A stretch of DNA of 64,000 nt. Source: Pseudonocardia abyssalis. GTDB lineage: Bacteria; Actinomycetota; Actinomycetes; Mycobacteriales; Pseudonocardiaceae. The notes below the pieces were generated by a model that had not been told where the DNA came from, made no database searches, and saw only the letters and a program-made list of their open reading frames with translations. Below, in pieces: positions 10,992-34,371 of this stretch. The stretch spans positions 4,278,001 through 4,342,000 of the forward strand of contig NZ_JADQDK010000001.1 in NCBI RefSeq assembly GCF_019263705.2. The letters run 5' to 3'. The translations under genes and the position numbers were made by a program. Within the stretch, counting starts at the first letter, position 1. Every line of letters begins with the position of its first letter.

Positions 10992-11064
10992 GCCCTCGTA
11001 GCTCAGGGGATAGAGCACCGCTCTCCTAAAGCGGGTGCCGCAGGTTCGAATCCTGCCGGGGGCA
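10992..11064 (+). tRNA. tRNA-Arg (anticodon CCU)
   Basis: 73-nt cloverleaf: acceptor strand GCCCTCG pairs with CGGGGGC (one G-U pair), discriminator A. The D arm contains GCTCAGGGGATAGAGC, the anticodon loop CTCCTAA gives CCU, and the T arm is GCAGG-TTCGAAT-CCTGC. The CCA end is not encoded. The 3' half from the anticodon loop is the attachment site of the integrated element downstream. Confidence 0.95.
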
Positions 11065-11065
11065 C
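11023..11065 (+). repeat. attL: tRNA-Arg 3' half, 43-bp direct repeat
   Basis: Runs from the anticodon loop (CTCCTAAAGCGGG) through the T arm to the discriminator and one following C. Identical over 43 bp to 33877-33919, and 40 of 43 bp identical to 48023-48065. The tRNA is left intact. Confidence 0.93.
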
Positions 11066-11103: not shown

Positions 11104-11123
11104 CGTGGAGCTATACGTGGAGC
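11104..11123. repeat. Integrase arm-type sites, left end
   Basis: CGTGGAGC at 11104-11111 and again at 11116-11123, start-to-start 12 bp, between att and the integrase start. The same 12-bp-spaced pair occurs at the right end (33762, 33774), so these are likely integrase arm-binding sites. Confidence 0.65.
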
Positions 11124-11143
11124 GAGCCTGCTACCGTCGCTCC

Positions 11144-12667
11144 ATGCCGGGGTCCTCGAAGCGTCAGCGGGGCGAGATCGAGAAGCTGCCCAGCGGCTCG
11201 CTGCGGGTCCGCGTCTACGCCGGCCTCGACGCGCTGAGCGGCAAGCGCAACTACCTCGTCGAGACCGTGCCCGCCGGGCCGAAGGCCGCTGCGGAGGCCG
11301 AGAAAGTCCGGCGCCGGCTCGTGCACCAGGTCGACGAGCGCCGCAACCCGCGCACGAAGGCGACGGTCAACCAGCTCATGGACCGCTACCTGGAGCTGCT
11401 CGACGTCGAGGAGACCACCCTCGACCGCTACGAGCAGACGATCCGGGTGCACATCCGCCCGCTCCTCGGGCACATCCCCCTCGCGAAGCTCGACGGCGAG
11501 ACGCTCGACAACCACCAGGCGATCCTCCGCCGGTGCCGGGCGCACTGCGACGGCCGGCCGTTCGTCGAGCACGCCGTCGATGGCCCGCACGACTGCTTGG
11601 AGAAGTGCCGGCTGCACGTCTGCCGGCCGCTGGCGACGTCGACGATCCGCAAGGTGCATTTCTGCCTCAGCGGAGCCCTCGCCCGCGCCGTCCGCTGGCG
11701 CTGGATCACGGTTAACCCTCTCGACCAGGCCGAGCCGCCCCGCGGCGGCCGCTCTGATCCCAGCCCGCCGACGGCCGACCAGGCAGCCGCAATTCTCAAC
11801 GCCGCGTTTCCGGACGTGATGTGGGGCTGCCTGCTCTGGCTCGCCATGACAACCGGCGCCCGCCGCGGCGAGCTGTGTGCGATGCGCTGGGGCCTGCTCG
11901 ACCTGGACCGCGCCGTCCTGACGATCCGCTCCAGCATCGCCCAACAGGGCACCCGAACCTGGGAAAAGGACACCAAGACCCACCAGCAGCGCAGAATCGC
12001 TCTCGACAATGACACGGTGGCCCTGCTGGGTTCCTACCGAGAGCGGTGCGGGGAGAACGCGACTGCCGTCGGAACAACGCTTGCGCTCGGCGGGCGACTC
12101 TTCTCGGCATCGGTCGACCACAGCACGTGGCTGCGGCCATCGTCTGTCTCGAACCGCTACGCGCGGATGTGCCGTCGGCTTGGCTACGACATGAACCTGC
12201 ACCAGCTACGCCACTACTCAGCGACAGAGCTAATCGCAGCCGGCGTAGATGCGCGAACCGTGGCGGGCCGCCTTGGTCACGGCGGCGGAGGGTCGACCAC
12301 ACTTCGGGCATATACGGCATGGGTTGCCGAGGCTGACCAACGTGCCATGAAATCGTCGAGCGTCCGAATGCCTCCGCCACCCATCCAGCTCAGTAACCGC
12401 GAGTTCGACAGACAAGAAGTCAACTCAAAAGTTTCAGGACCGTACAGCGTAATCGCCTCGGACCTCCGAGCGGCAATCAGGTGTGGAGCAATCGCTACCG
12501 GCGAACCGCTGCCTACAATTTCCGCACTCATGAACCAGTACAACGTCTCAGCTGGAACAGCTCACCGCGCCATCTCGAGCCTACGAGACGACGGCTTGAT
12601 TGTAACGAAGAGAGGTCAGCGATCGATAGTGCTGACAGATCGAAGCCACCGGTCATGTGTCGACTAG
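11144..12667 (+). CDS. int: Tyrosine site-specific integrase with C-terminal GntR-like domain
   Basis: 507 aa. After an N-terminal AP2-like arm-binding region and a SAM-like core-binding domain with an unusual Cys/His-rich insertion (CRAHCDGRP, then HDCLEKCRLHVC), the catalytic domain has Arg in TGARRGELCAMRW (near residue 240), HQLRH (near 352), GRLGHGGG, and the nucleophile Tyr in TTLRAYTAW. About 75 further residues form a GntR-type winged helix (YSVIASDLRAAIRCGAIATGE, NVSAGTAHRAISSLRDDGLIVTKRG). ATG 11144 is chosen over 11105 because the arm sites lie upstream. Base composition falls towards AT in the last third, matching the cargo genes behind it. Confidence 0.92.
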   Translation: MPGSSKRQRGEIEKLPSGSLRVRVYAGLDALSGKRNYLVETVPAGPKAAAEAEKVRRRLVHQVDERRNPRTKATVNQLMDRYLELLDVEETTLDRYEQTIRVHIRPLLGHIPLAKLDGETLDNHQAILRRCRAHCDGRPFVEHAVDGPHDCLEKCRLHVCRPLATSTIRKVHFCLSGALARAVRWRWITVNPLDQAEPPRGGRSDPSPPTADQAAAILNAAFPDVMWGCLLWLAMTTGARRGELCAMRWGLLDLDRAVLTIRSSIAQQGTRTWEKDTKTHQQRRIALDNDTVALLGSYRERCGENATAVGTTLALGGRLFSASVDHSTWLRPSSVSNRYARMCRRLGYDMNLHQLRHYSATELIAAGVDARTVAGRLGHGGGGSTTLRAYTAWVAEADQRAMKSSSVRMPPPPIQLSNREFDRQEVNSKVSGPYSVIASDLRAAIRCGAIATGEPLPTISALMNQYNVSAGTAHRAISSLRDDGLIVTKRGQRSIVLTDRSHRSCVD

Positions 12668-12737: not shown

Positions 12738-13985
12738 ATGCCAGAACAATTAAGTAGCGACTTGGAACTCTGCAGGGTCGCTCACGTATCCAGCGATGGC
12801 CTAACCGCACAACTTGAGATCCTGCGAAACTCAGTCTGGGCAACCCTCAGGTCATCCACGCCCCTCAGCCTAGAAGAGGGGACGATGGTACTCATCGACC
12901 CCGACGCCAGCAACGGCGAGGAAGTATGGAGGAAAGCGCCCGAGAGCCTGCGCATGGATCAGCAACTGGTGGGAAACGTCCGCTTCCTGAACGAAGAGCT
13001 CACGGTTGTTGAGGTTGGTGGCCGTCAGATAGCAATTCCCACCAATGAAACCTTCGAATACTCTGTGGATCATTCAGTCACGTTTTCGGAGAGATTTGGA
13101 ATAACGGCGGTTCTCACCAAGGAGCCCATAGCCTCTGTAGATCCGCTCGGCGAAGATTCGGTCGATATTTCGACTTATGCGGTTGACCCTCCTAACCCAC
13201 CACTCAAGTTCGCGGATTTCGGCGGATCGGCAGAGATTGTCGAGCGCGCCCGACAACTCGTAGAGCTCCCTCTTGAACGCGCCACCGAGCTAGCCACCAT
13301 CAACGCCAAACCAATTCAGGGCGTGATCTTTAGTGGCCCTCCAGGAACAGGGAAGACGCTGCTAGCACGCATCATTGCCTGCCAAGCCCAGGTTCCGTTG
13401 TACGTAATCAACGGGGGCCAGATCGCCAGCAAGTGGTGGGGCCAAAGCGAGCGCGTTCTCCGGCGAATCTTCGACACTGCGGCCGCGGATAAGCGAGCGA
13501 TCATCGTCATTGACGAGATTGACACCATTGGCGGGCAGCGGCAGGACGGAATGCACGAAGGTTCGTCGCGACTAGTAACTCAACTGTTGACACTCATGGA
13601 TGGATTTCAGCAAAGTCGCGGCGTGGTGGTGATAGGCACGACTAACCGGGTGGACAGCATTGATTCGGCCCTCAGGCGCCCCGGCCGATTTGACTGGGAG
13701 ATCGAGTTCCGCTTACCAGATGTACTAGAACGAAGGCTGATCCTCGTCAGCTCAAGCCGTGACGTTCGCATGATGGACGATATTGATCACTTTGAGATCG
13801 CTGCGGAGACCGAGGGGTGGTCTCCGGCGGACTTAGCGTCCATATGGTCCGAAGCTTCCTACGTCGCAGCCGCGGATGCGCGTAGCGCTATTGCCCAAGA
13901 AGACTATCAAGAAGGCTACCGACGGGCCGCAGCTCAAAAGGCCGTACGAAACAGAACACGTACTACGGGAGAGTCCCCGGCATGA
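12738..13985 (+). CDS. AAA+ ATPase, proteasomal/Cdc48-like type
   Basis: 415 aa. About 150 N-terminal residues look like two small beta domains, similar in placement to the OB domains of ARC/PAN-type ATPases. A classical AAA module follows: FADFGG entry motif, Walker A SGPPGTGKT (near 200), pore-loop region ASKWWGQSE, Walker B IIVIDEIDTIGG (near 255), sensor-1 IGTTNRVDSID and arginine fingers LRRPGRFD. This indicates a hexameric unfoldase or remodelling motor. It is clearly AT-richer than the transfer genes, and its stop overlaps the next gene's ATG (ATGA), so the two proteins are produced together. Linkage to defence is inferred from position in a mobile element beside a type I R-M system. 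Confidence 0.85.
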   Translation: MPEQLSSDLELCRVAHVSSDGLTAQLEILRNSVWATLRSSTPLSLEEGTMVLIDPDASNGEEVWRKAPESLRMDQQLVGNVRFLNEELTVVEVGGRQIAIPTNETFEYSVDHSVTFSERFGITAVLTKEPIASVDPLGEDSVDISTYAVDPPNPPLKFADFGGSAEIVERARQLVELPLERATELATINAKPIQGVIFSGPPGTGKTLLARIIACQAQVPLYVINGGQIASKWWGQSERVLRRIFDTAAADKRAIIVIDEIDTIGGQRQDGMHEGSSRLVTQLLTLMDGFQQSRGVVVIGTTNRVDSIDSALRRPGRFDWEIEFRLPDVLERRLILVSSSRDVRMMDDIDHFEIAAETEGWSPADLASIWSEASYVAAADARSAIAQEDYQEGYRRAAAQKAVRNRTRTTGESPA

Positions 13986-15376
13986 GGCGAGCATTCCGCT
14001 ACTTGCGCAACCGGTACCGGCTGATCCGACGCTGGTGGACTGCCCAGCTTCGCCAGCATCCCCTTCGCGAGTTTGTGTATCTTGATGAGATCAGCGTCTT
14101 CTCGTTGATCTCCTCGCGACTAGGGCCGATAGCGAGTGAAATCACCGAAACTGCACTTGCCACGGTGAGCGCTGAGTCGAGCGCAGACGTTGAATTGGAC
14201 TTGAAGCCGATCAAGGCTAAAGGCGGCAGCAAACGCGCAAAGTCAACGAGCAGTGAGACCCAAGTACTTAGGAAAGCGACGATTCAATCGACATTTCGCG
14301 AATTGTACGAGTTCCAGCGTGAGTCATTCCGTATAGCAGTGGTCGGGGCGTCGGCAACTGCACCCACGATCTCGTCAACGACAGACTTGGCGCGCGACGC
14401 AGGTTCGACAAGCTTCTCCGGCTGGGTCATCGATCCCCGGAAGCTCGAACGCGGCGATCTCGTTGAAATGAAGCTCAGCCTGGAAGCGGACCCCGCATAT
14501 CTCGTAAGCAGCAATATCGGCGCGATAGCAGACATCGTTGATGACGGCGGTGGGCTAATTCCCGGTTCGAATAGCCCGCAGATGGCTCAGATCGTCGCCT
14601 TGAATCGAATTCTGGAACGACTGATGGTCGGGCTGGTGCCCCTGCTGTGCCGCGCCACCGAGTACCGGGCTGTGACGATCGACGGGCGTGAACTTCTGGT
14701 CCACGAGAGAATACTATCGCAACTCAGTCCCGGCCACGGCCTCTTGATTCGACCGTTCTACGTAGCCGGCATCACCGAGCTGGGACTATACTGGAAAGAC
14801 GTCCGGAGAATCCTGTTCTCACAAGTCGAATACACCGCGCTATGCAGAATCGAGAATCCTGCAATCCGGGATCGCTGGACATCTGTGAAGCTCGTCGATC
14901 TGATGCGCTCCACGATACCTGACATGGCGGCCGCCATCGAGAATATCGGACCGCAAGTGCTTCAAGTAATGAGTGCAAGTCAGATTGGCGACCCAAACCA
15001 AATTGACGTCCGTACCCGCGAATGCAGATTGCGGGCGCTCAATGCGTACGGGCGAGAACTCCTGCAGCGATCAGCGGTGGCCGTGACCGCTGCCGACGAG
15101 CAGCAGATAGACGCAATTGCGACACGCACTGCAGATGCACTATCGACATATCCAGGGCGCCTCGCTGCTTATAGGGAGATAGCAGACTACGTAAAAGGGC
15201 GTGCTGGCCAAGACGTCGACCCCGCGGATGCTATTCAGATTCGCGGCCGCGTGCTTCGCGACGCTGGCCTCACTCTGGAAGCTGCGCTTCTAGGAGCGCC
15301 GAGCGGGACTACACCTGCCGGCCCGGAGTCTGACCAAAGAATTCTAGAAACCGAAATTGTAGCGCTCTACTGGTGA
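13982..15376 (+). CDS. DUF6414-like protein, partner of the AAA+ ATPase
   Basis: 464 aa, no enzymatic motif I can name. A basic amphipathic start (RAFRYLRNRYRLIRRWW) is followed by REFVYLDEISVFSLISSRLGPIASEITET, which resembles the N-terminal signature I associate with the DUF6414 family. A central region (GWVIDPRKLERGDLVEMKLSLEADP) and a segment with RIEN, then a helical C-terminus, complete it. Roughly 70 residues in, a Lys/Ser-rich linker (KAKGGSKRAKSTSSE) appears. The ATGA overlap with the ATPase and shared low GC make it a two-gene unit. Function unknown; sensor or effector paired to the motor is a hypothesis. Confidence 0.7.
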   Translation: MRRAFRYLRNRYRLIRRWWTAQLRQHPLREFVYLDEISVFSLISSRLGPIASEITETALATVSAESSADVELDLKPIKAKGGSKRAKSTSSETQVLRKATIQSTFRELYEFQRESFRIAVVGASATAPTISSTTDLARDAGSTSFSGWVIDPRKLERGDLVEMKLSLEADPAYLVSSNIGAIADIVDDGGGLIPGSNSPQMAQIVALNRILERLMVGLVPLLCRATEYRAVTIDGRELLVHERILSQLSPGHGLLIRPFYVAGITELGLYWKDVRRILFSQVEYTALCRIENPAIRDRWTSVKLVDLMRSTIPDMAAAIENIGPQVLQVMSASQIGDPNQIDVRTRECRLRALNAYGRELLQRSAVAVTAADEQQIDAIATRTADALSTYPGRLAAYREIADYVKGRAGQDVDPADAIQIRGRVLRDAGLTLEAALLGAPSGTTPAGPESDQRILETEIVALYW

Positions 15377-16293: not shown

Positions 16294-19200
16294 TCAGCGA
16301 TCGCGGACCAGCTCCGCACCGTTGTCCATCTCGACAACCGGTTCGGCTTGCCGGCCCAGCTCGATCACCTGCTCGTCCTCGGCGGCCCGCGCTGCGCGTG
16401 CAGCCTCGGCCTGCTGTCGGGCCGCGATTTCGGCGAGGGCTGCCTGCGCGCGCTCGACAGTCTCGGCGGTCTCGTCGACCGTCGGGATACGCCGACGCTC
16501 AGCCGGGTCGGTCCGCTCGCTCGGGTGCGCGGCACTGATCTCACGGACGTCGGGCACGGCGGTCTCGGCCGCGTCGACCGGCTCGTCGAGTCGCTCGGCG
16601 GCCGGGTCGTGCAGCTCGTGCTCGTCGTGGATCGCGCGGTCGCAGTCGGCGTCGGTCTGCTCCGCGAGGTGCGCGGCGAGCCACTCGTCCCCCGTCACGC
16701 GGTCGTCCGGCTCGTCGGGGTCGATGCCGCGGGCGCGGAGTTCGGCGCCGGACCGGTGGGCCTCGTCCCGCGTGACGGCTGTGTGCACGTACCACCGGCC
16801 GCGGGCCTCGTCGGCGTCCTCGAGCACGGCGGCGCGGGCGGCGAGCTGCTCCGCCTCGCGGGCGGCCGCGGCGGCATCGGCCCGGAGCCGGGCACCGTCG
16901 GTCTCGTCGACGCCCGGTGCGTCGGCGTGGGCGGCCCACACCTCGGCGTCAGTACGGGCCTGGGCGAGGGCCTGGTGGAGGGCGTCGAGTTCGTCGGCGA
17001 CATCGCGCGGCGCCCACTGCTCCTCCCGCTGGTACGCGACGTAGCGGGCGCGGAGCTGGCCGTCGGTCAGGTCGGCCTCCTCGGCGCCGGCGTCGAGCAG
17101 ACCGAGCGCCTCGTGCGCGGCCCGGTAGACCGCCGCCTTCTCCGCGAGTCCGGGGGCCGGCGCGAAGCCGAGCGGGTCGCGGTCGTCGGTGTAGCCGGCG
17201 AGTTCGCGGTAGGCCGCGGCCCAGCCGGCGCGGTGCTCCCACTCCTGGCGGGCGAGCACGTCGTCGTCGGCCGGGACCGAACCGAGAGCGTCGAGGGCCC
17301 ACCGCGGCGGCTGCTCGGCGACCTCGGCGCCGAGTTCGTGGCGACGGGTGTCGGCGGCCTCGGCCCGGTCGCTCATCCATGCGGCCCACTCCTCCGGCAC
17401 CCGGGACGGGATGAGGTCGCTCATCGTCGTCAGGTGCGGGGTGAGACGGCCGGCGTAGGCGGCGGTGATGCGGCTGTGCAGCACCTGGGCGGGCGAGCGG
17501 GCGCCTGTCAGGTCCCGGTCGGCGAGCACGCCGGACAGCACGGCGTCGGGGTCGTGGCCGGCGAGTTCGGCGGTGCGCAGCAGCCGCTCCAGCGAGCCGA
17601 ACGCCTCGTCGGCGGCGAGCGCGGTGCGCTGATCGGCGGTGATCGCACCCTCGGCGGTGAGCCGGTCGAGCGTGGCGGCGGTCCGGCCGGCGGTGACGGT
17701 GCGGCCGATGACGTCGGCGAGCTGATCGACGTGCGTCATCGTCGAGCGCGCCGCGATCTCGTCCTGCTCGCGCTCGGCCAGCGCCGACCGCTCGCGCTCG
17801 TAGCCGTCGAGCACGTCGGCCAGCACGGCGGCGGCGCTGCGCGGCTCGACCTCGAACGTCTGCCCGGTGTCGGCGTCCGCCACGGTGGCGGTGGTGACCA
17901 CCCACGCGGTGTTGTTCTCCCGCCCGCGGGTCATCGGCACCAGCAGCCCGGGAAGGTCCGTCCCTGCCGCGGGCACGCAGTGGGCGGTATCGACGGTGCG
18001 GCCCTCGGCGGCGTGGACGGTGGAGGCGTAGCCGAGCGTCAGGTCGGCGGCCACGTAGGTGGGTGGCAGGGCGAGCGGGTCGCCGAGCACCTCCCCGTCC
18101 GGGCGGCGCTCGACCACCGGCGCCACGGTGAGCCCGCCGTCCGGGCGCAGCGCGGTGACGCGGTAGGTGTCGCGGTTGATCGGGGCGCGGGTGTTGCCGT
18201 CGACGCCGATCAGCTCCCAGCCGTTGCGGCGGGCCTGCACGAGATCCCCGACTCCAGCCACGACGCCCTCCCAGCCCTCACGGGCCAGCGCGACGCCCTG
18301 CTCGTCGACGCGGCCGAGCGCGACCAGCTCGGCGCGCAGCGCGGCCGACATCCGCGCGGCGGCGGCGTTGTCGCGGACCATCAGCAGCGACTCGCGGCCG
18401 GCGAGGGTGTCGGCAAGCCACGCCCGGGACGCGGCGGTCTCGGCCTGCTCGGGCGTGCCGCCCTCGCGGAGCCGGCCGTGCTTGGCGTACTCGGCGAGCA
18501 CACCCGTGTCACCGTCGCGCAGCCGCAGCGACGCGGCGCACTCCCACTGCGCGTGGAAGCGGCGGACGTCGGCAAGCTCGTAGCGGATGCCGTGCTCGGC
18601 GACGTCGGCCAGCGCCCCGCCCGGCCCGACGGCGCCGAGTTGGCGCGGGTCGCCCACCAGCAGCAGCTTCGCGCCGGCCTCGGCGCACCGGGCCTGGATC
18701 TCGGCGAGCTGGTCGGTTCCGGCCATGTTCGCCTCGTCGACGACCACGAGATCGTCGGGCCGCAGCTGCCACCGCTCATCGGCCGCGGAGCCGGTGCGGA
18801 GCCGGTTTTGCGCGCCGAGCCATGCGGCGGTGTTCGTCGCCGCTGTGACGCCCTCCTCGGCGAGCACGCCGGCCGCCACCTGCGACGGCGTGAGCCCGAA
18901 GACGCGCCGCCCGTCGACGCCGGCCCAGGCCTCGGACAGCGCGCCGACGACGAAGGACTTGCCGGTGCCGGGGGCGGCCGACATGACCTCGACCTGCGCA
19001 CCAGATGTCAGCACTCCGCGCAGCGCGGCCGCCTGGTCGACGCCCAGCGGGCGCCCGGACGTGGCGAACCGGGCGACCAGGGAGTCCGCGGCGTCTGTGG
19101 TGAACCGGGCCGTGCCGCGCCGGACCATCGCGGCGCGGAGCGCGTGCTCTGCCGAGACCTGGCCCTCGGTGGTGAACAGGGCGACGGCGGGTGCGGTGTA

Positions 19201-20640
19201 GGGCGACTGGCCGTTGGCGAGCAGCTCTGACGCCGGCAGGTTCGTCGTGTCGCCCGGGCGGGTCACGGGAACCGCGCCGTCGAGCGCGGCGTCGGTGAGC
19301 CCGTCGAGCAGCGGGCGAACGTCCTCGGGCCGCACGCGTAGGTTCCCCGGTAGGGCGTCGGAGACGGCCCGCAGGAGCCCCGACCGGGTCCACGCTTGCT
19401 TCGTCTCCGACACCCCGGCGAGCGCGCGGTCGACGACGTCCCGCATCGACCACGCGGCCGCCTCACTCGCCTGCTGGGCGCGGGCCCGCACGTCGTGGGC
19501 GACCTGCCCGAGGCCGGTCCCGATCGTGTTCGCGCACTGCTCGGTCCACCGGGCGAGCTGCTCGGCGCGCGTCTCCCCCACGTGCGACTTCGCCGCGCGG
19601 GTCGCGAGCGTGGCCTGACGGGCGATGTAGAACCGCTCCGCCGACGACGGCTCGCGCCCGTAGGTCCGGCGGAACTCGCCGAGCATCTCCGCCGTCCGGC
19701 CGGTGACCGCGCGCCGGCGCGACGAGAACAGGTCCATCACCTCGCCCGACACGCCGACCACCTCGCGGGCCCGCCCGTCGGGGCGGGTGGCGAACTCGAC
19801 GCCGAGCGAGCGCGTCATGTGAGCCTCCATGACCCGTTCGCCGATCGCACCGGCCGCGCCGCGCAGTGCGTGGATGGCGCGGGAGTCGAGCGTGCGCCAC
19901 GTGCCGTCCGCACACGGGACGCGGTTGAGCACGGCCTGATGGACGTGCAGCTGCGGGTCCTTGTCGCGGGAGTCGTGCTGCAGGAACTGCGCGACGACGA
20001 ACTCGTGCGCGTCCACCCAGCGGCCGGCGCCGCCGCCGTGGTGCCCGACGCGGGAGTAGCCAGCCTCGTCCTGCAGGTAGTCGATCACGGCGCGGGCGCC
20101 GGCCATCACGGCCTCCTCGACTGCCTGTGCGTGCGCCTCCCACGCCTGCGCGGCCTCCTCGTCGCCGGCGGCGCGCGCGTCGTTGGCCGCGCGCTCGAAG
20201 GCGACGGCGAGGACGGTGACGCTCTTGGGTGCGGAGAACGTGAGATCGAGGAACGCGACGGCCTGGCGGGAAGAGCGTTCGGCCTGCGCGCGCAGCTCGG
20301 CGCGCTGCTCGGGGCCGGCGTCCGGGTGCGACTCCAGCAGCCCGGTGTAGATCTCGTCCGCGCTGCGGTACTTGCGGTGTCCCGGCGCGAGCGCGTCGGC
20401 CTCGTCCCAGGTCTCCGGCGAGCGCGAGCGCGGGTCGCGCGGGTCCCGCAGGTGCGAGTAGAGCGCCTCCATCAGGTGCGGGTCGACGTGGCCGTCGAGA
20501 CCGAGGGCCTCGGCGCCGGCGCCGTACCAACGCCCCGGTGGTTCGCCCGCGGCGACGGCGCCGGTGTAGTAGTTCTCGCGGCCCTTGGCGACGGCGTCGG
20601 TGAGGTAGCGGACGGAGTGTCCGGTGGCGATGCTGAGCAC
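16294..20640 (-). CDS. MobF-family relaxase with RecD-like helicase (TraA/TrwC-like)
   Basis: 1448-aa DNA-processing enzyme of conjugation. The N-terminal TrwC relaxase domain has the tyrosine pair NYYTG (residues 23-27) and a metal-binding motif PQLHVHQAVLNRV (near 232). The helicase domain has Walker A SAAPGTGKS (near 557), Walker B LVVVDEANM (near 633) and the late superfamily-1 motif GYASTVHAAEGRTVDTAH. A long Ala/Glu/Arg-rich coiled C-terminus ends the protein. The relaxase nicks oriT and stays covalently attached while the helicase unwinds. GTG at 20640 has AAGGAG 8 bp upstream. It is the last gene of the minus-strand transfer operon, 130 bp after the DUF4913 gene. Confidence 0.92.
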   Translation of the reverse strand: MLSIATGHSVRYLTDAVAKGRENYYTGAVAAGEPPGRWYGAGAEALGLDGHVDPHLMEALYSHLRDPRDPRSRSPETWDEADALAPGHRKYRSADEIYTGLLESHPDAGPEQRAELRAQAERSSRQAVAFLDLTFSAPKSVTVLAVAFERAANDARAAGDEEAAQAWEAHAQAVEEAVMAGARAVIDYLQDEAGYSRVGHHGGGAGRWVDAHEFVVAQFLQHDSRDKDPQLHVHQAVLNRVPCADGTWRTLDSRAIHALRGAAGAIGERVMEAHMTRSLGVEFATRPDGRAREVVGVSGEVMDLFSSRRRAVTGRTAEMLGEFRRTYGREPSSAERFYIARQATLATRAAKSHVGETRAEQLARWTEQCANTIGTGLGQVAHDVRARAQQASEAAAWSMRDVVDRALAGVSETKQAWTRSGLLRAVSDALPGNLRVRPEDVRPLLDGLTDAALDGAVPVTRPGDTTNLPASELLANGQSPYTAPAVALFTTEGQVSAEHALRAAMVRRGTARFTTDAADSLVARFATSGRPLGVDQAAALRGVLTSGAQVEVMSAAPGTGKSFVVGALSEAWAGVDGRRVFGLTPSQVAAGVLAEEGVTAATNTAAWLGAQNRLRTGSAADERWQLRPDDLVVVDEANMAGTDQLAEIQARCAEAGAKLLLVGDPRQLGAVGPGGALADVAEHGIRYELADVRRFHAQWECAASLRLRDGDTGVLAEYAKHGRLREGGTPEQAETAASRAWLADTLAGRESLLMVRDNAAAARMSAALRAELVALGRVDEQGVALAREGWEGVVAGVGDLVQARRNGWELIGVDGNTRAPINRDTYRVTALRPDGGLTVAPVVERRPDGEVLGDPLALPPTYVAADLTLGYASTVHAAEGRTVDTAHCVPAAGTDLPGLLVPMTRGRENNTAWVVTTATVADADTGQTFEVEPRSAAAVLADVLDGYERERSALAEREQDEIAARSTMTHVDQLADVIGRTVTAGRTAATLDRLTAEGAITADQRTALAADEAFGSLERLLRTAELAGHDPDAVLSGVLADRDLTGARSPAQVLHSRITAAYAGRLTPHLTTMSDLIPSRVPEEWAAWMSDRAEAADTRRHELGAEVAEQPPRWALDALGSVPADDDVLARQEWEHRAGWAAAYRELAGYTDDRDPLGFAPAPGLAEKAAVYRAAHEALGLLDAGAEEADLTDGQLRARYVAYQREEQWAPRDVADELDALHQALAQARTDAEVWAAHADAPGVDETDGARLRADAAAAAREAEQLAARAAVLEDADEARGRWYVHTAVTRDEAHRSGAELRARGIDPDEPDDRVTGDEWLAAHLAEQTDADCDRAIHDEHELHDPAAERLDEPVDAAETAVPDVREISAAHPSERTDPAERRRIPTVDETAETVERAQAALAEIAARQQAEAARAARAAEDEQVIELGRQAEPVVEMDNGAELVRDR

Positions 20641-20770: not shown

Positions 20771-21394
20771 TCAGGTGCGTCGGTGTTGCTGGCGGGTGTG
20801 GATGTCGGCTTCGTGGAGCTGCTCGTCGGTCGGTTCGGGTCGTGGGGCGAGTGCGTCCTTCGTCCAGGCGATGGCGATCAGCTCGGCGTGGTCGGCGAGC
20901 GGCGCGGGTGCGGCCGGCCGGGCGTGCGCGGTGCCGGTGCGGTGCAGGGACAGCTCGCACGTTCCGATCGCGGACCGGACGCGCTTGGCGACGCCGGGGC
21001 GCTGGCGCTCGTGCCAGTCGCCGACCCGGGGCCAGGTGCCGGCCTGGGGGTCGAACGCCTCGGCGTGCGCGCAGCGCAGCCACCACAGCTCCTCGATCAC
21101 GTCCGGGTGCCAGAGCCAGCACGCGGAGAGCACGGCGTCCGGGTAGCGGAGGTAGACGCGGCGGGTCCACGCGATCAGGTCGGCGAGGTCGGTGACGGCC
21201 TGCTCGGGGTCCTGCGCGAGCATCCAGGACCGGACGGCGGTCGGCGCCTCCCCGGCCGGGGTGAGGGCGGCGGCCACCTCGGCGAGGTCCCCGGCGAGCT
21301 GGCGGACCAGCGCGTCGAGCGCGGTGACGCGGCGGCTGTTGCGCTCCACGGCCTTCGCCACGGCGGCGAGCTGCTCGTCCTCGGGCGGGCTCAT
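20771..21394 (-). CDS. DUF4913 family protein
   Basis: 207 aa. A heptad-like N-terminal helix (EQLAAVAKAVERNSRRVTALDALVRQLAGDLAEV) precedes the DUF4913 core: LIAWTRRVYLRYPDAVLSACWLWHPDVIEELWWLRCAHAEAF, then GDWHERQRPGVAKRVRSAIGTCELSLH. Such proteins are common in actinobacterial conjugative elements beside coupling proteins; their activity is unknown. ATG 21394 overlaps the coupling-protein stop (ATGA), fixing the start. Confidence 0.75.
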   Translation of the reverse strand: MSPPEDEQLAAVAKAVERNSRRVTALDALVRQLAGDLAEVAAALTPAGEAPTAVRSWMLAQDPEQAVTDLADLIAWTRRVYLRYPDAVLSACWLWHPDVIEELWWLRCAHAEAFDPQAGTWPRVGDWHERQRPGVAKRVRSAIGTCELSLHRTGTAHARPAAPAPLADHAELIAIAWTKDALAPRPEPTDEQLHEADIHTRQQHRRT

Positions 21395-23244
21395 CGCGGC
21401 CACCGGTCGCCCTCGCCGGGCACCACGCGGAGCAGCGGACGCTCCTCGATGGGCACGCCCTCGACGGCGCGCCACGGCGCGGCGGCCCAGCGGAGAGCAC
21501 TCGCCATCCACGCGACCGGCCGGGCGACGTGGACCGCCAGCCACCGGCGAGCCATGCGGGCGGTCGCGCGGAGTCGGACGTCGGGCGCGTCCGGGTACTG
21601 CCACGCCCGGACGTCGGGTCGCCGGTAGGCCATCTCCACGCGGCCGATCACCGGCGGCATCCCGCGGCGGAAGGCGACCACCGTCTCGGCGGGCAGGTTC
21701 GCGATCTGCGCCGGTGCGAGCACCGGGACCCGGCGGACCGTCCGGGACGCGACCCGCCCGTGCAGGTCGGTCGTGGTGATCGGCTCGTCGCGGTCGCCAC
21801 CCAGCGTCGACCAGTAGTTGAGGTCGTCGCGGGAGCGGGTGCCACCGAACACCATGACGGCGGCGGTGTTGTTGAGTATGACCTCGGCTTTGGCGTCACC
21901 CCAGCGGTCGAGGAGCTGCGCGCGGGACTGGAACGCACCGATGATCGTGACGCCGCGTCCGCCCATGTCGGCGGTCCACTGGTGCAGCGGCACCGGGCAG
22001 ATCAGCGCGGCCTCGTCGAGCGCAAGGGTGAGCGGCGGGTCGAGCCGGCCGCCCTTGCGCAGCGCGGCGATCCGCCGGGCCTCGCGGGCGATGTGCCCGG
22101 TGAGGGCGGACACGAGCGGCGCGGTCTGCGTCTCCTCGGCGCCGAGCAGGTAGACCGTCGCGCAGGCGGCGAGCAGCTCGGCGACGTCGAACCCGGCTCC
22201 CCCGGTCCGCGGCCCGGTCGCTGCGGCGGTCGCGGCCTCGTGCGTGAGCCAGCCCAGCGCGGGCATGATCGTCGAAGTGATCGAGGAGCGGGTCTTCTCG
22301 TTCGTCGCGAGGAACTGCGCGGCGTCCTGCTGCAGGGCCGGTTGGGGCGAGCGACGCAGCAGCGACGCCACCTCTGCCTTGGCGTCGTCCGGGTCGGTGA
22401 CCCACCGCTGCACGTCGTGCATCGTCAGGTCGATGTCGAGGGCGGCGGCGTGCAACAGCGCGGCCAGGACGCGCCGGGCCTGCGACTCCCAGAACTCCCG
22501 GTCGCCCGACCCGCCGCCCCACGTGCCGGCCGAGAGCAGGTCGGCGGCGCGCTCGGCGGCCGTCACGGGGTTGGTGCAGCCGGTGAGCGGGTCGAAGGTG
22601 ATCGTCGAGCCGAGCGACGCGAGCCCGACCGGGTTGAACACGTAGATCGGGCCGCGGGCGCGGCGCAGGGGCGCGGTCTGGTCGTAGAGGTCGGTACGGG
22701 TCGAGGTCACCAGGACGGCGCCGGGCGCGTCCAGGATGCGGCCGGCGAGGTACTGAGACTTGCCGGTGCGCGGACCGCCGAAGATGCACACGACGTCCTC
22801 GCTGGAGGCCCACACGCGCATCAACCCGGCGCGGCAGAGCAGCACGGCGACGTCGGCGGTGCGGACGGTCCAGTAGCGGGCGATCCGCTGCCACCGCGTG
22901 ACGGCGGCGAAGGACGGCCGGACGGTCCCGGCCCGGCGGCGCATCGCCAGAGAGCCGGCCACCTTGACGATGTCGGCCGTGGAGGCGACGCCGACCTTGC
23001 GCCGGGTGCGGGCGCCCCAGCGGACGACGACCGCGGACGTGCGGGCGTAGCGGTGCCAGAGCAACAGGGCCACCGGCGCGAGCAGCAGGGCGAGGACCCA
23101 CCCGGGGGTCTGCCGGTAGAGCGTCATCGCCGGCAGCAGGGCGAACGCCCCGAAGGCGACGGCGACCAGGCGGGCGCCGCGACTCCAGGCAGCCCAGGCC
23201 ACCCCGGCGGACACTGCGAGCACGAGCAGGGCGGAGCCGTTCAC
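21391..23244 (-). CDS. Type IV coupling protein, VirD4/TraG/TraD-like
   Basis: 617-aa membrane-anchored DNA pump that brings the relaxase-DNA complex to the transfer site. Three N-terminal hydrophobic segments (residues 5-70) precede the ATPase: Walker A CIFGGPRTGKSQYL (near 155), Walker B LALDEAALI (near 408), and the TraG-like segments TADMGGRGVTIIGAFQSRAQLLDRWG and VFGGTRSRDDL. This is distinct from the FtsK-like TraB of classical actinobacterial AICEs. GTG 23244 overlaps the upstream stop (GTGA). Confidence 0.88.
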   Translation of the reverse strand: MNGSALLVLAVSAGVAWAAWSRGARLVAVAFGAFALLPAMTLYRQTPGWVLALLLAPVALLLWHRYARTSAVVVRWGARTRRKVGVASTADIVKVAGSLAMRRRAGTVRPSFAAVTRWQRIARYWTVRTADVAVLLCRAGLMRVWASSEDVVCIFGGPRTGKSQYLAGRILDAPGAVLVTSTRTDLYDQTAPLRRARGPIYVFNPVGLASLGSTITFDPLTGCTNPVTAAERAADLLSAGTWGGGSGDREFWESQARRVLAALLHAAALDIDLTMHDVQRWVTDPDDAKAEVASLLRRSPQPALQQDAAQFLATNEKTRSSITSTIMPALGWLTHEAATAAATGPRTGGAGFDVAELLAACATVYLLGAEETQTAPLVSALTGHIAREARRIAALRKGGRLDPPLTLALDEAALICPVPLHQWTADMGGRGVTIIGAFQSRAQLLDRWGDAKAEVILNNTAAVMVFGGTRSRDDLNYWSTLGGDRDEPITTTDLHGRVASRTVRRVPVLAPAQIANLPAETVVAFRRGMPPVIGRVEMAYRRPDVRAWQYPDAPDVRLRATARMARRWLAVHVARPVAWMASALRWAAAPWRAVEGVPIEERPLLRVVPGEGDRWPR

Positions 23245-27589: not shown

Positions 27590-27757
27590 TCATCCGCTCC
27601 TTCCCTGGCCAGGTCAAGCCGAGCGTAGTGGGTTGACGACTGCGGGCCCCATGTGACGGGAGCGAGTTGCTCGCGAGCCGTACGCAGTACGAGGCCACAA
27701 GGCGATGGGCACCACCGAGCTACCGGCGGCTCCCGGACGGGTATCACGATCCACAGC

Positions 27758-29236
27758 GTGAGCACTACCCTCGCCTCTGTGATCACGGGCGAGCTCAAGA
27801 GCAAGATCGATCGAGTATGGGATGCGTTCTGGTCCGGCGGCATCTCCAACCCTCTCGAAGTGATCGAGCAGATCACCTACCTACTCTTCATCCGCCGACT
27901 CGACGACCTGCAGACGCTGAAAGAGAAAAAGGCCCGGGTTACGGGTGTCATCGAAGATCCGATCTTCGAGTCGAACCAGAACCGGCTACGTTGGAGCCGG
28001 TTCAAGAACGACGACGCCGACGTGATGCACGAGCTGGTTACCGACGAGGTCTTCCCGCTGCTGCGCAAGTTGGGCGGCGACGGATCGACGTACTCCGACC
28101 ACATGCGGGACGCACGCTTCACCATTCCCACGCCGGCGTTGCTGTCACGTGTCGTCGACATGCTCGACGGCATCCCCATGGAGCACCGCGACACCAACGG
28201 CGACCTGTACGAGTACCTGCTTTCCAAGATCGCCAGCGCGGGGGTCAACGGCCAGTTCCGCACGCCGCGTCACATCATCAACCTGATGGTCGCAATGACC
28301 GCACCCCGACCCGACGACGAGATCTGCGACCCGGCCTGCGGCACCGCGGGCTTCCTCGTGTCGGCGTCGGAGTACGTCCGAGACACCCACCCCGGCGCGC
28401 TGACCAACGACACGCAGCGCAAGCACTTCCACCGCAGCATGTTCCACGGCTACGACTTCGACTCCACAATGCTGCGCATCGGCAGCATGAACATGCTCCT
28501 GCACGGCATCGAATCCCCCGACATCCGCTACCGCGACTCCCTGTCGGAGGGAGCGAGCGAAGACACCGCGCGGTACACACTCGTCCTGGCTAACCCGCCG
28601 TTCGCCGGATCACTCGACGCCGAGTCAACTGCGAAGGACCTGCAGCGGGTGGTGAAGACGAAGAAGACCGAACTCTTATTCCTCGCCCTGTTCCTTAAAC
28701 TGCTTAAGCCCGGTGGCCGTGCGGCCGTGATCGTTCCTGACGGCGTTTTGTTCGGCTCCTCTAAAGCCCACAAAGACTTGCGTAAGGACCTCGTCGAGAA
28801 GCAGAAGCTAGACGCTATCGTAAAACTTCCTTCGGGGGTATTCCGGCCGTACGCTGGCGTCTCCACGGCAATCCTGTTCTTCACCAAGACTGACTCCGGC
28901 GGCACCGACGACGTGTGGTTCTACGACGTCTACGCCGACGGCTTTTCCCTGGACGACAGACGCAACCCAATCGACGACGACGACCTGCCCGACGTACTCA
29001 CCCGCTGGGCCGCCCGCACAACCACTGAGCGTGACCGCGATCGCACCGACCAATCCTTCTGTGTACCCAAGGCCGACATCGCTGCACAGGACTACGACCT
29101 CTCCCTCAATCGGTACAAAAAGATCATCCATGATGATATCGAACTGCGCCCGCCGCTGGAGATCATCGCCGATATCGAGGTCCTCAGCGAGGAGCTTGCC
29201 AAGGGGCTGGCGGAACTCAAGGCGATGCTCTCATGA
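27758..29236 (+). CDS. hsdM: Type I restriction-modification methyltransferase subunit
   Basis: 492-aa N6-adenine methyltransferase. An N-terminal HsdM helical domain (LASVITGELKSKIDRVWDAFW..., EVIEQITYLLFIRRLDDLQ) is followed by the SAM-binding motif I DPACGTAGFLV (near 190) and catalytic NPPF (near 278). The GTG at 27758 is the best start by homology; no strong Shine-Dalgarno is visible. The three hsd genes overlap in one operon (ATGA with hsdS). Works with HsdS to methylate the host DNA and with HsdR to cut unmodified DNA. Confidence 0.93.
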   Translation: MSTTLASVITGELKSKIDRVWDAFWSGGISNPLEVIEQITYLLFIRRLDDLQTLKEKKARVTGVIEDPIFESNQNRLRWSRFKNDDADVMHELVTDEVFPLLRKLGGDGSTYSDHMRDARFTIPTPALLSRVVDMLDGIPMEHRDTNGDLYEYLLSKIASAGVNGQFRTPRHIINLMVAMTAPRPDDEICDPACGTAGFLVSASEYVRDTHPGALTNDTQRKHFHRSMFHGYDFDSTMLRIGSMNMLLHGIESPDIRYRDSLSEGASEDTARYTLVLANPPFAGSLDAESTAKDLQRVVKTKKTELLFLALFLKLLKPGGRAAVIVPDGVLFGSSKAHKDLRKDLVEKQKLDAIVKLPSGVFRPYAGVSTAILFFTKTDSGGTDDVWFYDVYADGFSLDDRRNPIDDDDLPDVLTRWAARTTTERDRDRTDQSFCVPKADIAAQDYDLSLNRYKKIIHDDIELRPPLEIIADIEVLSEELAKGLAELKAMLS

Positions 29237-30390
29237 GATTGGTCGCTCTTGGCGAGCTTGTTGAGATTGTATCGGGGGCGACCCCGAGGTCGGAAGTCGC
29301 CGAATACTGGGGTGGTGACATCCGCTGGGTCACCCCCGCAGATCTGAGCAAGCTCAACGGCCCGTACATCGCAACAACCCCACGCACGATCACCAGGGCT
29401 GGACTCGCGAGCTGCGCTGCCACCGTGCTTCCAGTCGGCTCTGTCCTACTCAGCTCGCGGGCGCCGATCGGCCACGTAGCCATCAACACCGAGCCAATGG
29501 CGACAAACCAGGGTTTCAAGAGCCTAGTCCCTCGCGACGGCCGCCTGAACGCCAAGTATCTGTACCACTGGCTCCGAGCAAGGACGGATTACCTACAGAG
29601 TTTGGGCAACGGTGCGACATTCAAGGAGTTGTCGAAAGCGACAGTCGAACGCGTAGAGATTCCGCTCCCAATGCCCGATAAGCAGCGGCACATCGCAGCG
29701 ATCCTTGACCGGGCCGAGGCCCTGGGTGCGAAACACCGCCGAGTCATCGCTCGAATTGAGGAGCTCAGTCAGTCAATATTCTCTTCGGTCTTTGGTGAGC
29801 ACGAATACAGTATGGAACGCCTCGATAGTCTCGTAGACCGTGGCGACAGAATGAACTACGGCGTAATCCAGCCAGGCGACGACACACCTGGCGGCGTACC
29901 GCTTATTCGCATATCGAATCTTTCGGCTGGTGCCGTTGACCGGCGAAAACTAAAGCACATCTCACCAGATATCGAGGCAAGGTACGCACGATCTCGCATA
30001 CGCGGGAACGAGATCCTCGTCAGCTGCGTGGGTAGCATTGGCGAAGTTAGCGTCGTCTCGAACGCAGATATTGGCAGCAACATTGCCAGGGCGGTCACGC
30101 GAATACCTATATCGGATCCGGTAATGCGCTCGTACGTGGCCGCGTACCTCCGCACGCACGCACCGCAACGCTATTTTAGGTCGGAGTTGCGAACCGTCGC
30201 TCAGCCCACCTTGAACGTCAGACAGCTCGCCGCAACGCAGGTTCCAATGGCCTCACGCGAACTCTTGGAATCGTTCGTTCGCAATGCGGAACAGGTCACC
30301 GCACAAGGAGTCGTTGCAGTGCGTGCCCTCGCCATCGACGAGGCGCTATTCGAGTCAGTACGGTCGCGCGCGTTCCGAGGTGAGCTCTGA
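29233..30390 (+). CDS. hsdS: Type I specificity subunit
   Basis: 385 aa. Two target-recognition domains: the first (1-155, SGATPRSEVAEYWGGDIRWVTPADLS to PLPMPDKQRHIAAILD) and the second (about 195-375, DRMNYGVIQPGDDTPGGVPLIRISNLS to QVPMASRELLESFV). The conserved helical spacers (QRHIAAILDRAEALGAKHRRVIARIEELSQSIF) are shorter on the second side. Specificity cannot be read from sequence. The second TRD is AT-richer, a common sign of TRD exchange. ATG 29233 overlaps hsdM; the stop overlaps the hsdR ATG. Confidence 0.9.
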   Translation: MRLVALGELVEIVSGATPRSEVAEYWGGDIRWVTPADLSKLNGPYIATTPRTITRAGLASCAATVLPVGSVLLSSRAPIGHVAINTEPMATNQGFKSLVPRDGRLNAKYLYHWLRARTDYLQSLGNGATFKELSKATVERVEIPLPMPDKQRHIAAILDRAEALGAKHRRVIARIEELSQSIFSSVFGEHEYSMERLDSLVDRGDRMNYGVIQPGDDTPGGVPLIRISNLSAGAVDRRKLKHISPDIEARYARSRIRGNEILVSCVGSIGEVSVVSNADIGSNIARAVTRIPISDPVMRSYVAAYLRTHAPQRYFRSELRTVAQPTLNVRQLAATQVPMASRELLESFVRNAEQVTAQGVVAVRALAIDEALFESVRSRAFRGEL

Positions 30391-33300
30391 TGGGCAACTT
30401 CGACTTCGCAGGCGGAACATTGCCGACCGTCCATCCGGACTGCGCGAGAGCAGAGGCGCATCTGTCCACAGACCCCCGCTCGGCGTGCTTCTACAGCCGC
30501 CGAGCCGTGGAGGGTTTGGTGAAGCACCTGTACGACGTGATGGCCCTGAAGGCGCCCTACAAGAACGACCTCGCCGCCCGGATCGACGACGCGGCCTTCA
30601 AAGCGAAGGTCGGGGTGGGCATTGCCCAGAAGCTCACCCTGATCCGCAAGCTCGGCAACACCGCCGTGCACGAACAGAAGCCGGTCCCGCCGCGCGTGGC
30701 GCTTGACGTGCTCCGCGAACTACACCACGTCGTCGTCTGGGCGGCGTTCCGGTACTCGACAGATCCGCAGGCTGTACCGACTCAGGCGCAGTTCGATCCG
30801 GCACTCGCATCCAAGGCCGCACCGCTGACCCGTGAGGAGGTTCAGCGGCTGGCGGCGAAGTTCGTCGCTCAGGACGAGGCGCACGCCAAGGAAATTGCGG
30901 AGAAAGACGAGCTGTCGGCTGCAAAGGACGCCGAGATCTCACTGCTCCGCGAGCAGATCGCGGCAGCGCAGGCCGCCAACACAAAGGTCGACGACCACGA
31001 CTACACCGAGGCGCAGACCCGCGATCTGTTCATTGATCTCCTGCTGCGCGAAGCCGGCTGGCCGCTGGACGAGGCCCGCGATCGCGAGTACCCGGTCACC
31101 GGCATGCCGAACAACGGCGGCACCGGAAAGGTCGACTACGTGCTGTGGGGCGCGGATGGGCGCCCCCTGGCCATAGTCGAGGCGAAACGGACCACGAAGA
31201 GCGCAGGAAACGGCCAGCAGCAGGCGAAGCTCTACGCCGACTGCCTGGAGCAGCAGTTCGATCGTCGGCCGGTCATCTTCTACACCAACGGCTACGAGCA
31301 CTGGCTCTGGGACGACGGCGCCGGCTACCCGCCGCGCGAGGTCCAGGGCTTCCTCAACCGCGACGAGCTGGAACTGATGATCCAGCGACGCGACACCCGG
31401 CTGCCGCTTTCCGGCTCCACCGTCGACACCACGATCGTCGAGCGGCCCTACCAGCACGAGGCCATTCAGGCCGTCGGCGCCGCCTTCGACGAGAAGCAGC
31501 GCGAAGCCCTGCTCGTCATGGCCACGGGCTCGGGCAAGACGCGCACCGTCATCGCCCTGATCGACCAGCTGATGAAGGCCGGGTGGGTCAAGCGCGTGCT
31601 GTTCCTCGCCGACCGCACCGCGCTCGTCAACCAGGCCACCAACGCGTTCAAGGCGCACCTGCCGGGGGTCACGACCGTCAACCTGGTCACCGAGAAGGCC
31701 GTCGACGGGCGGGTCTACACCTCCACATACCCGACGATGCTCAACCTGATCAACGCCACGGACGGCGGGCTGCGTCGGTTCGGCCCCGGCCACTTCGATC
31801 TCGTCGTCATCGATGAGGCGCACCGGTCGGTGTACCAGAAGTACGGCGCGATCTTCGACTGGTTTGACGGGCTGCTGATCGGGCTGACCGCGACCCCGAA
31901 GGACGAGGTCGACCACAACACCTATCGGCTGTTCAACCTGGAGGACGGTGTCCCCACCTCCTCCTACGGGCTAGGCGAGGCGGTGCGCGACAAGTTCCTG
32001 GTGCCGCCTCGTGGGGTCGCGGTGGGCACCAAGTTCCTCCGCCACGGCATCCGCTATGCCGACCTCTCCACGGAGGAGAAGGACGAGTGGGACGCCCTCG
32101 ACTGGGGCGACGGTGACGTCCCGGACGAGGTCGGTGCCGAGGAGCTCAACCGGTTCCTGTTCAACGAGGACACCGTCGACAAGGTCCTGGCCAACCTGAT
32201 GGACAAGGGCCACAAGGTCTCCGGGGGCGACCTGCTGGGCAAGACGATCGTGTTCGCCAAGAATCAGGCCCACGCCGAGTTCATCCAGCGCCGGTTCGAC
32301 GTCCAGTGGCCGCACCTGGCCGGCGAGTTCGCCCGTATGATCACGCACGGCACCGCCTACGCCCAGAAGCTCATCGACGACTTCTCCACCACCGACAAGT
32401 CCCCGCATATCGCGATCTCCGTCGACATGCTCGATACCGGGATCGACGTGCCCGACGTCGTCAACCTCGTGTTCTTCAAGACGGTCCGGTCGAAGAGCAA
32501 GTTTTGGCAGATGCTCGGCCGCGGGACCCGGCTGCGCCGCGACCTGTTTGGTCCAGGCGTTCACAAGTCGGACTTCTACGTCTTCGACTTCTGCGGCAAC
32601 CTCGAGTTCTTCAGCCAGGATCTGCCCGGCTCCGAGGGATCCTTGCAGAAGTCGCTGACGCAGCGGCTGTTCGAGGCTCGCCTGGGCCTGATCCGCGGGC
32701 TCGACACGGCCGGCACCGAGGAGCCGCTGCGGGCGAGCACGACCGAGGCCCTGCACCGCTTCGTCGCGGGGATGACGCTGGACAACGTCCTCGTCCGGCC
32801 GCATCGGAAATGGGTGGAGCGCTACACCGACGGCGCCGCATGGACGTCGATCTCGGACGATGATGTGCAACAGCTCCTCACCCATCTCGCCGGGCTTCCG
32901 TCCACCGACACCGACGAAGACGAGCAGGCCAAACGGTTCGACCTGATCGTGCTCCGGCGCCAGCTCGCGCAGCTCGACGGTGACGCGGTGACCGCGGAGC
33001 GACTGCGCGAACAGGTGCAGGAGATCGCCGCGGTGCTGCTCGGGAAGCAGGCGATCCCGTCGGTGGCCGAGCAGCTTGCCCTGCTCGACGCGGTGTCTGG
33101 CGACGAATGGTGGATCGACGTCACCCTGCCGATGCTGGAGTTCGCCCGGCTCCGGATCCGCGGCCTCGTACGGTTCGTCGAGAAGGGCAGGCGCAACCCC
33201 GTCTACACCGACTTCGCCGACGAACTGAGTGCGGCCGTGGAAATCGACCTCCCTGGAGTCGTCCCGGGCACGAACCCCGAGCGCTACCGGGCCAAGGCCG

Positions 33301-33743
33301 CCGCGTACTTCCAGGAGCACGAGGATCACGTCTCCCTCCAAAGGCTACGCCGCAACAAGCAGCTCACCCCCGACGACCTACTTGCCCTTGAGGAGATGCT
33401 GCTGGCCAGTGGCGCGGGTCCGGTCGACGCCAGCTGGGTGGCCGACCAGGGCCTCGGGGTGTTCATCCGCTCGATCGTCGGGCTCGACCACCAGGCCGCC
33501 ACCGAGGCGTTTGGCCACTACCTCGACGGAAGCCGGTTCACCGTCCACCAGATCCGTTTCGTACACCTGATCATCAACGAGCTGACGTCCAATGGAGTTG
33601 TCGAGCCGCGACGGCTCTTCGAGTCCCCGTACACCGATCACGCCCCCACTGGGCCGGACGCTCTGTTCCCAGAAGCCGATGTCGAGGTCATCGTCGACAT
33701 CCTTCACGAGGTTCGGAACCGGGCCAGGGCAGGTGTGGCCTAG
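30390..33743 (+). CDS. hsdR: Type I restriction endonuclease subunit with N-terminal DUF4145
   Basis: 1117 aa. A DUF4145-like N-terminus (1-110) and a coiled linker (EEVQRLAAKFVAQDEAHAKEIAEKDELSAAKDAEISLLREQIAAA) precede the PD-(D/E)xK nuclease (KVDYVLWGADGRPLAIVEAKR, near 246-267). The SF2 translocase has Walker A MATGSGKT (near 376), VIDEAHR (near 472), TATPK and the late motif QMLGRGTRLR. A C-terminal HsdM-binding region ends the protein. All key residues look intact, so the system is probably active. Ends 19 bp before the first arm site at the right end of the element. Confidence 0.92.
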   Translation: MGNFDFAGGTLPTVHPDCARAEAHLSTDPRSACFYSRRAVEGLVKHLYDVMALKAPYKNDLAARIDDAAFKAKVGVGIAQKLTLIRKLGNTAVHEQKPVPPRVALDVLRELHHVVVWAAFRYSTDPQAVPTQAQFDPALASKAAPLTREEVQRLAAKFVAQDEAHAKEIAEKDELSAAKDAEISLLREQIAAAQAANTKVDDHDYTEAQTRDLFIDLLLREAGWPLDEARDREYPVTGMPNNGGTGKVDYVLWGADGRPLAIVEAKRTTKSAGNGQQQAKLYADCLEQQFDRRPVIFYTNGYEHWLWDDGAGYPPREVQGFLNRDELELMIQRRDTRLPLSGSTVDTTIVERPYQHEAIQAVGAAFDEKQREALLVMATGSGKTRTVIALIDQLMKAGWVKRVLFLADRTALVNQATNAFKAHLPGVTTVNLVTEKAVDGRVYTSTYPTMLNLINATDGGLRRFGPGHFDLVVIDEAHRSVYQKYGAIFDWFDGLLIGLTATPKDEVDHNTYRLFNLEDGVPTSSYGLGEAVRDKFLVPPRGVAVGTKFLRHGIRYADLSTEEKDEWDALDWGDGDVPDEVGAEELNRFLFNEDTVDKVLANLMDKGHKVSGGDLLGKTIVFAKNQAHAEFIQRRFDVQWPHLAGEFARMITHGTAYAQKLIDDFSTTDKSPHIAISVDMLDTGIDVPDVVNLVFFKTVRSKSKFWQMLGRGTRLRRDLFGPGVHKSDFYVFDFCGNLEFFSQDLPGSEGSLQKSLTQRLFEARLGLIRGLDTAGTEEPLRASTTEALHRFVAGMTLDNVLVRPHRKWVERYTDGAAWTSISDDDVQQLLTHLAGLPSTDTDEDEQAKRFDLIVLRRQLAQLDGDAVTAERLREQVQEIAAVLLGKQAIPSVAEQLALLDAVSGDEWWIDVTLPMLEFARLRIRGLVRFVEKGRRNPVYTDFADELSAAVEIDLPGVVPGTNPERYRAKAAAYFQEHEDHVSLQRLRRNKQLTPDDLLALEEMLLASGAGPVDASWVADQGLGVFIRSIVGLDHQAATEAFGHYLDGSRFTVHQIRFVHLIINELTSNGVVEPRRLFESPYTDHAPTGPDALFPEADVEVIVDILHEVRNRARAGVA

Positions 33744-33876: not shown

Positions 33877-33919
33877 CTCCTAAAGCGGGTGCCGCAGGTT
33901 CGAATCCTGCCGGGGGCAC
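33877..33919 (+). repeat. attR of element 1 / left att of degenerate element 2
   Basis: Perfect 43-bp copy of the tRNA-Arg 3' half (11023-11065). It contains only the anticodon-loop to discriminator half, so it is not a tRNA gene. Confidence 0.93.
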
Positions 33920-33968
33920 AAGCACTGACCAGTGGATACGCCTCGCGATATCGCGGGCAGACACCCCG

Positions 33969-33988
33969 CGTGGCACGTTTCGTGGCAC
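33969..33988. repeat. Diverged arm-type sites of element 2
   Basis: CGTGGCAC at 33969-33976 and 33981-33988, again start-to-start 12 bp, between att and the integrase pseudogene start (34011). Same geometry as CGTGGAGC of element 1 but a different base, fitting a related integrase with altered arm specificity. Confidence 0.55.
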
Positions 33989-34010
33989 GAACTCGCTCTA
34001 TGGTGGATCC

Positions 34011-34205: not shown

Positions 34206-34371
34206 GCTCCGGAGTTCGAGGCGCAGGGCGAGCCGGCGGTAGCGTTCGCCGATGGCCCGCGGCAGGAACGGGGTCGACCCGTCGGGTGCGGGGGAGAAGA
34301 CGAAGGCGTCGAGGCTGAGGGCGGAGCCGAGCTCGGCGCAGCGGGATTCGAACAGCTCGCGGTGGGCGGCA
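34205..34371 (-). pseudogene. Fragment of a second, different recombinase (minus strand)
   Basis: An open minus-strand frame reads HRELFESRCAELGSALSLDAFVFSPAPDGSTPFLPRAIGERYRRLALRLELRSTRA, the style of the region before the catalytic His-x-x-Arg of actinobacterial tyrosine recombinases. It has no start, no catalytic motifs and abuts the plus-strand integrase remnant. The following stretch 34372-34597 shows nothing I can identify. Confidence 0.5.

Follow-up and report, generated by a model that had tools for sequence, protein, structure and literature searches.

Three described systems come close to the gene pair reported here. IetAS is an anti-phage pair made up of the ATPase IetA and a subtilase partner, and in the TRIP13/Pch2-HORMA module of CBASS an AAA ring remodels a dedicated small partner. 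The motors Mpa/ARC, PAN and Rpt place one or more beta-barrel domains before a single AAA module with a K-aromatic-hydrophobic-G pore loop. We analyzed a window of 64,000 nucleotides (nt) from Pseudonocardia abyssalis (contig NZ_JADQDK010000001.1, positions 4,278,001 to 4,342,000), in which an AAA+ ATPase gene, gene A, is followed by gene B, which encodes a DUF6414 protein. No paper in the literature searched names the DUF6414 partner. We lean towards reading the two genes as a mobile accessory system, most likely directed against phages or other mobile elements, in which the DUF6414 protein serves as an adaptor or a substrate of the ATPase ring.

12738..13985, + strand: gene A, AAA+ ATPase, 415 amino acids (aa), ATG start, from the open reading frame (ORF) list and Pfam
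13982..15376, + strand: gene B, long-form DUF6414 protein, 464 aa, ATG start, from the ORF list and Pfam

Both ORFs are as described in the original prediction, which was made from the letters of the window; its wording that they are fused in translation is not apt, as the genes overlap by 4 nt (ATGA) and 'overlapping' is the proper word. The gene A start at 12738 agrees with its homologues, whose alignments begin at residues 1-11 in many loci; a public prediction (P0121) begins later and gives 366 aa.

The two genes form a unit across genomes

A species-genome collection was scanned once with two gene B peptide patterns, which yielded 75 loci that hold a gene B relative. Since one pattern was the gene B C-terminus, that end was partly selected for, and forms that diverge from the patterns may have been missed. 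In 72 of the 75 loci, or 72 of the 73 with upstream sequence, gene A immediately precedes gene B on the same strand, and the two matches are 8-222 nt apart. The exceptions are two contigs that start inside gene B (L059 and L068) and one locus with a broken gene B (L067). Where both ORFs were called (67 pairs, window included), 32 pairs overlap by exactly 4 nt and 55 fall within -60 to +50 nt; in the remaining 12 the called start is over-long. Gene B is also present in 11 plasmid records, and all eight that were read have gene A upstream (the Rubrobacter record is the same place as locus L005).

The reverse test gave the same picture. Gene A matches 21 of 396 genomes of the phylum at an E value of 1e-50. 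Three of these matches span the N-terminal barrels (4.2e-95 or better) and adjoin the three intact long DUF6414 genes in this set, while the other 18 begin at residue 132 or later (best 3.1e-53). Pairwise distances of gene A mirror those of gene B, with a correlation of 0.899 over 64 pairs and at most 0.179 in 1000 permutations. Linked in 72 of 73 loci and reciprocally in 3 of 3, gene A and gene B are a real unit rather than two mostly unlinked genes.

No third conserved gene was found among 563 flank genes within 6 kb, the largest flank family occurring in 8 of 72 loci. As no gene family is common to more than eight loci, no transfer gene is common to more loci either, and no transfer role is recognised for the DUF6414-like protein. 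By the same count the pair has no recurrent housekeeping context. Three loci are irregular: the broken gene B of L067 (8001-8833) lies close to a serine recombinase, gene A is split in L026 (2415-4896), and in L070 (7893-8474) the middle of gene B is lost with both conserved ends kept.

Gene A is an Rpt/PAN/ARC-like motor

Gene A matches the Pfam families AAA (PF00004, 1.6e-41) and AAA_lid_3 (PF17862, 3.3e-9), both above cut-off. Its structure model resembles Rpt, PAN, p97 and FtsH and has two five-strand stretches (residues 10-66 and 77-127) before the AAA module (~150-400); the barrel limits follow the modelled strands, the second stretch is covered by the Rpt rows, and the name OB is given by analogy. 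Walker A (200-207), Walker B (D259/E260), the sensor N303 and the arginine fingers R314/R317 are in place, and the catalytic residues are invariant in 67 sequences. The pore loop, K232-W-W-G235, is comparable to the K-F-V-G described for Mpa (PMC8755798). Gene A is thus an Rpt/PAN/ARC-like motor, and the predicted ARC/Cdc48-like motor with N-terminal beta domains is borne out. Its product would assemble into a hexameric AAA+ ring, entered through tandem beta barrels and equipped with a pore loop for threading, that presumably works without a proteasome.

Gene A differs from Mpa/ARC, PAN and Rpt in that it has no N-terminal coiled coil (the first strand starts at residue 10) and no C-terminal docking motif, in that some hosts have no proteasome-family protein, and in its dedicated partner gene. 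Assignment to Mpa/ARC (TIGR03689) was rejected at 109.1 bits against a curated cut-off of 504.75. As in IetAS, a classic AAA ATPase is one of two genes in an operon-like arrangement, and IetA is the best PADLOC match of gene A (1.4e-31, residues 179-401). However, that match is confined to the AAA module and the NF042959 score is 97.3 bits against a cut-off of 510. The partner here is a DUF6414 protein and not a protease, and with the ATPase below the NCBIfam cut-off and no subtilase partner we rejected IetAS as an identity for the pair. The likeness to TRIP13 is weaker (7.5e-13), and in contrast to CBASS most loci have no cyclase and gene B matches no HORMA model of PADLOC.

Gene B is a long form of DUF6414

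The DUF6414-like assignment of gene B is well founded, the PF19952 match (1.9e-38; residues 28-326) scoring 133.2 bits against a gathering cut-off of 25. No other Pfam family is above cut-off, no PADLOC model matches, and comparison of the structure model gave no convincing match. The model (predicted local distance difference test score 85.9, predicted template-modelling score 0.72) consists of helices, a mixed beta region, a bundle of helices and a strand at the C-terminus. Along the sequence, a basic N-terminal tail (1-27) precedes the conserved REFVYLDE (29-36), helices (36-115), the mixed beta region (160-296), a helical insert (~303-427) and the final strand, which ends in Tyr-Trp. Positions conserved in at least 90% of 115 sequences include REFVYLD, Q102, R157-G158, GLVP (217-220), WKD (271-273), R275, R276, R289, W299 and the final YW. 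There is no His or Cys among them, and hence no enzyme site is seen.

The gene B product would be a dedicated partner that binds the ring, either as an adaptor or as the protein that is remodelled. In a different role, the DUF6414 protein might use its basic tail and a barrel-like domain to bind invader DNA or RNA and leave the ATPase to remodel the complex; we regard such a nucleic-acid-directed action as quite unlikely.

DUF6414 is not confined to the pair. It matches in 24 of the 396 phylum genomes. Three of these carry the long form together with gene A, and a fourth is the source of the broken L067 copy; the other 20 have shorter frames or fragments with no gene A in flanks of at most 1.5 kb, and gene A was likewise absent within 1.5 kb when counted by locus (26 match loci minus the 3 long). 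Nor was gene A found in ten short-DUF6414 loci of 12-15 kb. The short proteins share with gene B the N-terminal motif region, the core and the C-terminal strand, but mostly do not have the basic tail and helical insert. When ten of them were aligned to ten long forms, residues 1-20 and most of 321-440 were empty (some columns near 391-410 are filled, perhaps by misalignment), and so the long form adds a tail and a helical insert. As called, the short genes L121-L130 encode 264-295 aa and are solitary, with no ATPase.

Coupling to the proteasome is refuted as a general mechanism

An Rpt-like motor would fit proteasome-linked degradation, in which DUF6414 supplies the hydrophobic-Tyr-X tail absent from the ATPase and so couples the ring to a 20S core. 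The two C-termini have the pattern that this calls for: Tyr-Trp closes all 69 DUF6414 ORFs of at least 400 aa, that of the window among them, and 112 of 115 alignment rows, and none of 69 gene A ORFs carries a C-terminal HbYX-type docking motif. However, the Tyr-Trp tail is a beta strand in the gene B model, and short, solitary DUF6414 proteins end similarly. The hosts also argue against coupling. We tested 30 of the 75 carrier genomes and found no PF00227 protein in 11. Eight have a 20S core, of which 5 score over the TIGR03690 cut-off and 3 are haloarchaeal; in the remaining 11 the PF00227 match is of another kind, probably HslV or Anbu. Some carrier genomes are drafts or bins, which makes any single PF00227 absence uncertain; the L053 locus lies on a complete chromosome. 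Proteasome coupling is refuted as a general mechanism and is very improbable as an explanation of the pair.

The pair is patchily distributed and occurs on plasmids

Carriers include Actinomycetota, Pseudomonadota, Chloroflexota, Acidobacteriota, Myxococcota and haloarchaea, and the distribution is patchy. In the gene B tree seven haloarchaea fall together and bacterial phyla are mixed; short branches join different families (L045/L047) and different genera (L053/L056). Several transposases or recombinases lie near the pair on annotated plasmids. The pair was not found in any virus or phage record searched, which we count neither for nor against defence. In one case (L107, NZ_CP007791.1) it sits on a 25.9-kb mobilizable plasmid of Corynebacterium marinum, which also carries a set of Mu-type transposition genes and a gene annotated as erm.

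The neighbourhood is rich in known defence genes

For 72 loci we scanned, in two batches, the two closest called genes to either side of the pair (249 proteins, 3 long ones excluded). These neighbours match 179 and 232 PADLOC models at 1e-10, whereas 132 control proteins, taken from ten regions of the P. abyssalis genome, match 11. Among the first 25 models of each batch are GajA, GajB, PtuA, DruA, AbiEii, Dsr1 and the type I REase, together with the CBASS cyclase, E1-E2 and endonuclease effector; none of the 132 control proteins matches these defence models, while mad3 is equally frequent in both sets. Taken singly, ten large neighbours include a type I REase (L045), DruA (L010), GajB (L062), GajA (L044) and LmuB (L073), and on annotated plasmids SIR2, McrC and restriction-endonuclease genes occur within ~6 kb. 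The neighbourhood is therefore richer in known defence genes than the one-genome control, in line with the defence-type setting first proposed. Upstream of the pair, four actinobacterial loci (L035, L044, L045 and L047) carry a large gene resembling HsdR and a smaller one; in L044 the pair is separated from these by a GajA gene and one more gene.

A pair that is almost never separated, is scattered among genomes and often lies near antiviral genes appears to be an accessory system that has yet to be described and is probably antiviral. Several observations weigh against this. The control comes from a single genome; of the ten large neighbours, four have no PADLOC match and one matches mad3 only (L012); several neighbours are housekeeping genes (PGK, TIM, RecA, PheS, ribonucleotide reductase); some PADLOC matches mislead, such as the TIR-effector models on L002:5398-6069, which rest on a cNMP-binding domain; and the 9 label changes in the gene B tree, where 6 is the least possible, are no proof of transfer.

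The same four unmatched neighbours, the chromosomal sites that adjoin housekeeping genes and the mobile setting in the island and on plasmids would also suit a module that promotes the fitness or stability of mobile elements, serving for example element maintenance or protein quality control with no antiviral role, whose defence neighbours merely reflect cargo gathering in shared variable sites. We consider this rather unlikely, since named defence genes are enriched over the control and many carriers have no common element genes near the pair. The earlier proposal of a new defence or fitness module thus stands for the pairing, the mobility and the defence neighbours, and from this context a defence role itself is probable.

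If the pair is a defence system, the ring would respond to infection by pulling apart or rearranging an invader protein delivered by DUF6414, or DUF6414 itself, and the invader would be stopped. One could go further and imagine an immune system common to bacteria and haloarchaea, with a protease-free proteasome-type unfoldase and a partner of possibly new fold whose insert, basic tail and C-terminal Tyr-Trp form the ring interface, disarming invaders by forced protein unfolding and not by nucleic-acid cutting; this fuller scheme is speculative and, on balance, doubtful. An antiviral function would make the pair a new system across Actinomycetota, Pseudomonadota, Chloroflexota, Acidobacteriota, Myxococcota, haloarchaea and others. 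It would also tie DUF6414, a family of unknown function, to a defined motor. The motor would then be a natural example of a PAN/ARC-like unfoldase that works apart from the proteasome, and its partner would be open to tests for an adaptor or a substrate role.

The pair lies in an integrated island

In P. abyssalis, the pair is surrounded by the following features.

10992..11065, + strand: tRNA-Arg (CCT), the integration site
11023..11065, + strand: att repeat, left copy, 43 bp, within the tRNA gene
11105..12667, + strand: island tyrosine integrase, C-terminal helix-turn-helix (HTH) of GntR type (PF00589 2e-17, residues 224-405; PF00392 2.7e-12, residues 447-507)
16294..20640, - strand: TrwC-type relaxase of the island, outside the pair (PF08751 3.1e-58)
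21391..23244, - strand: TraG/TraD-type coupling protein, part of the setting (PF12696 2.8e-20, PF02534 1.3e-19)
27653..33743, + strand: type I restriction-modification (R-M) genes, part of the setting (HsdM 27653-29236, HsdS 29233-30390, HsdR 30390-33743)
33877..33919, + strand: att repeat, right copy, 43 bp, exact

The last 43 bp of the tRNA gene are repeated exactly at 33877-33919, and the pair is therefore part of an integrated 22.9-kb element. As the original prediction had noted, the pair directly follows the integrase, which ends 70 bp upstream of gene A, and shares the element with the type I R-M genes, which lie inside the att-bounded island; a WhiB-type protein and a NUDIX protein are also encoded there. 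A long DUF6414 match was found in only 1 of 60 sampled genomes of the genus, namely this one, so the pair is probably a recent arrival.

The GC content of the pair is 0.571, lower, as predicted, than that of the rest of the island (0.703); the window outside the island is at 0.728, and the minimum among 670 sliding 2639-bp windows from ten other regions of this genome is 0.68. The island R-M genes are likewise AT-richer (HsdS 0.589, HsdM 0.616), which speaks against a special status of the pair. Across loci the pair is AT-richer than its surroundings in 45 of 51 cases (median -0.084), to which amino-acid make-up may partly contribute.

The integrase is unusual in joining a recombinase and a GntR-type HTH regulator in one ORF. 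The end of tRNA-Arg recurs a third time, imperfectly, at 48031-48065 (35 nt with 2 mismatches), which suggests a second, tandem element of ~14 kb (33920-48065) behind the island.
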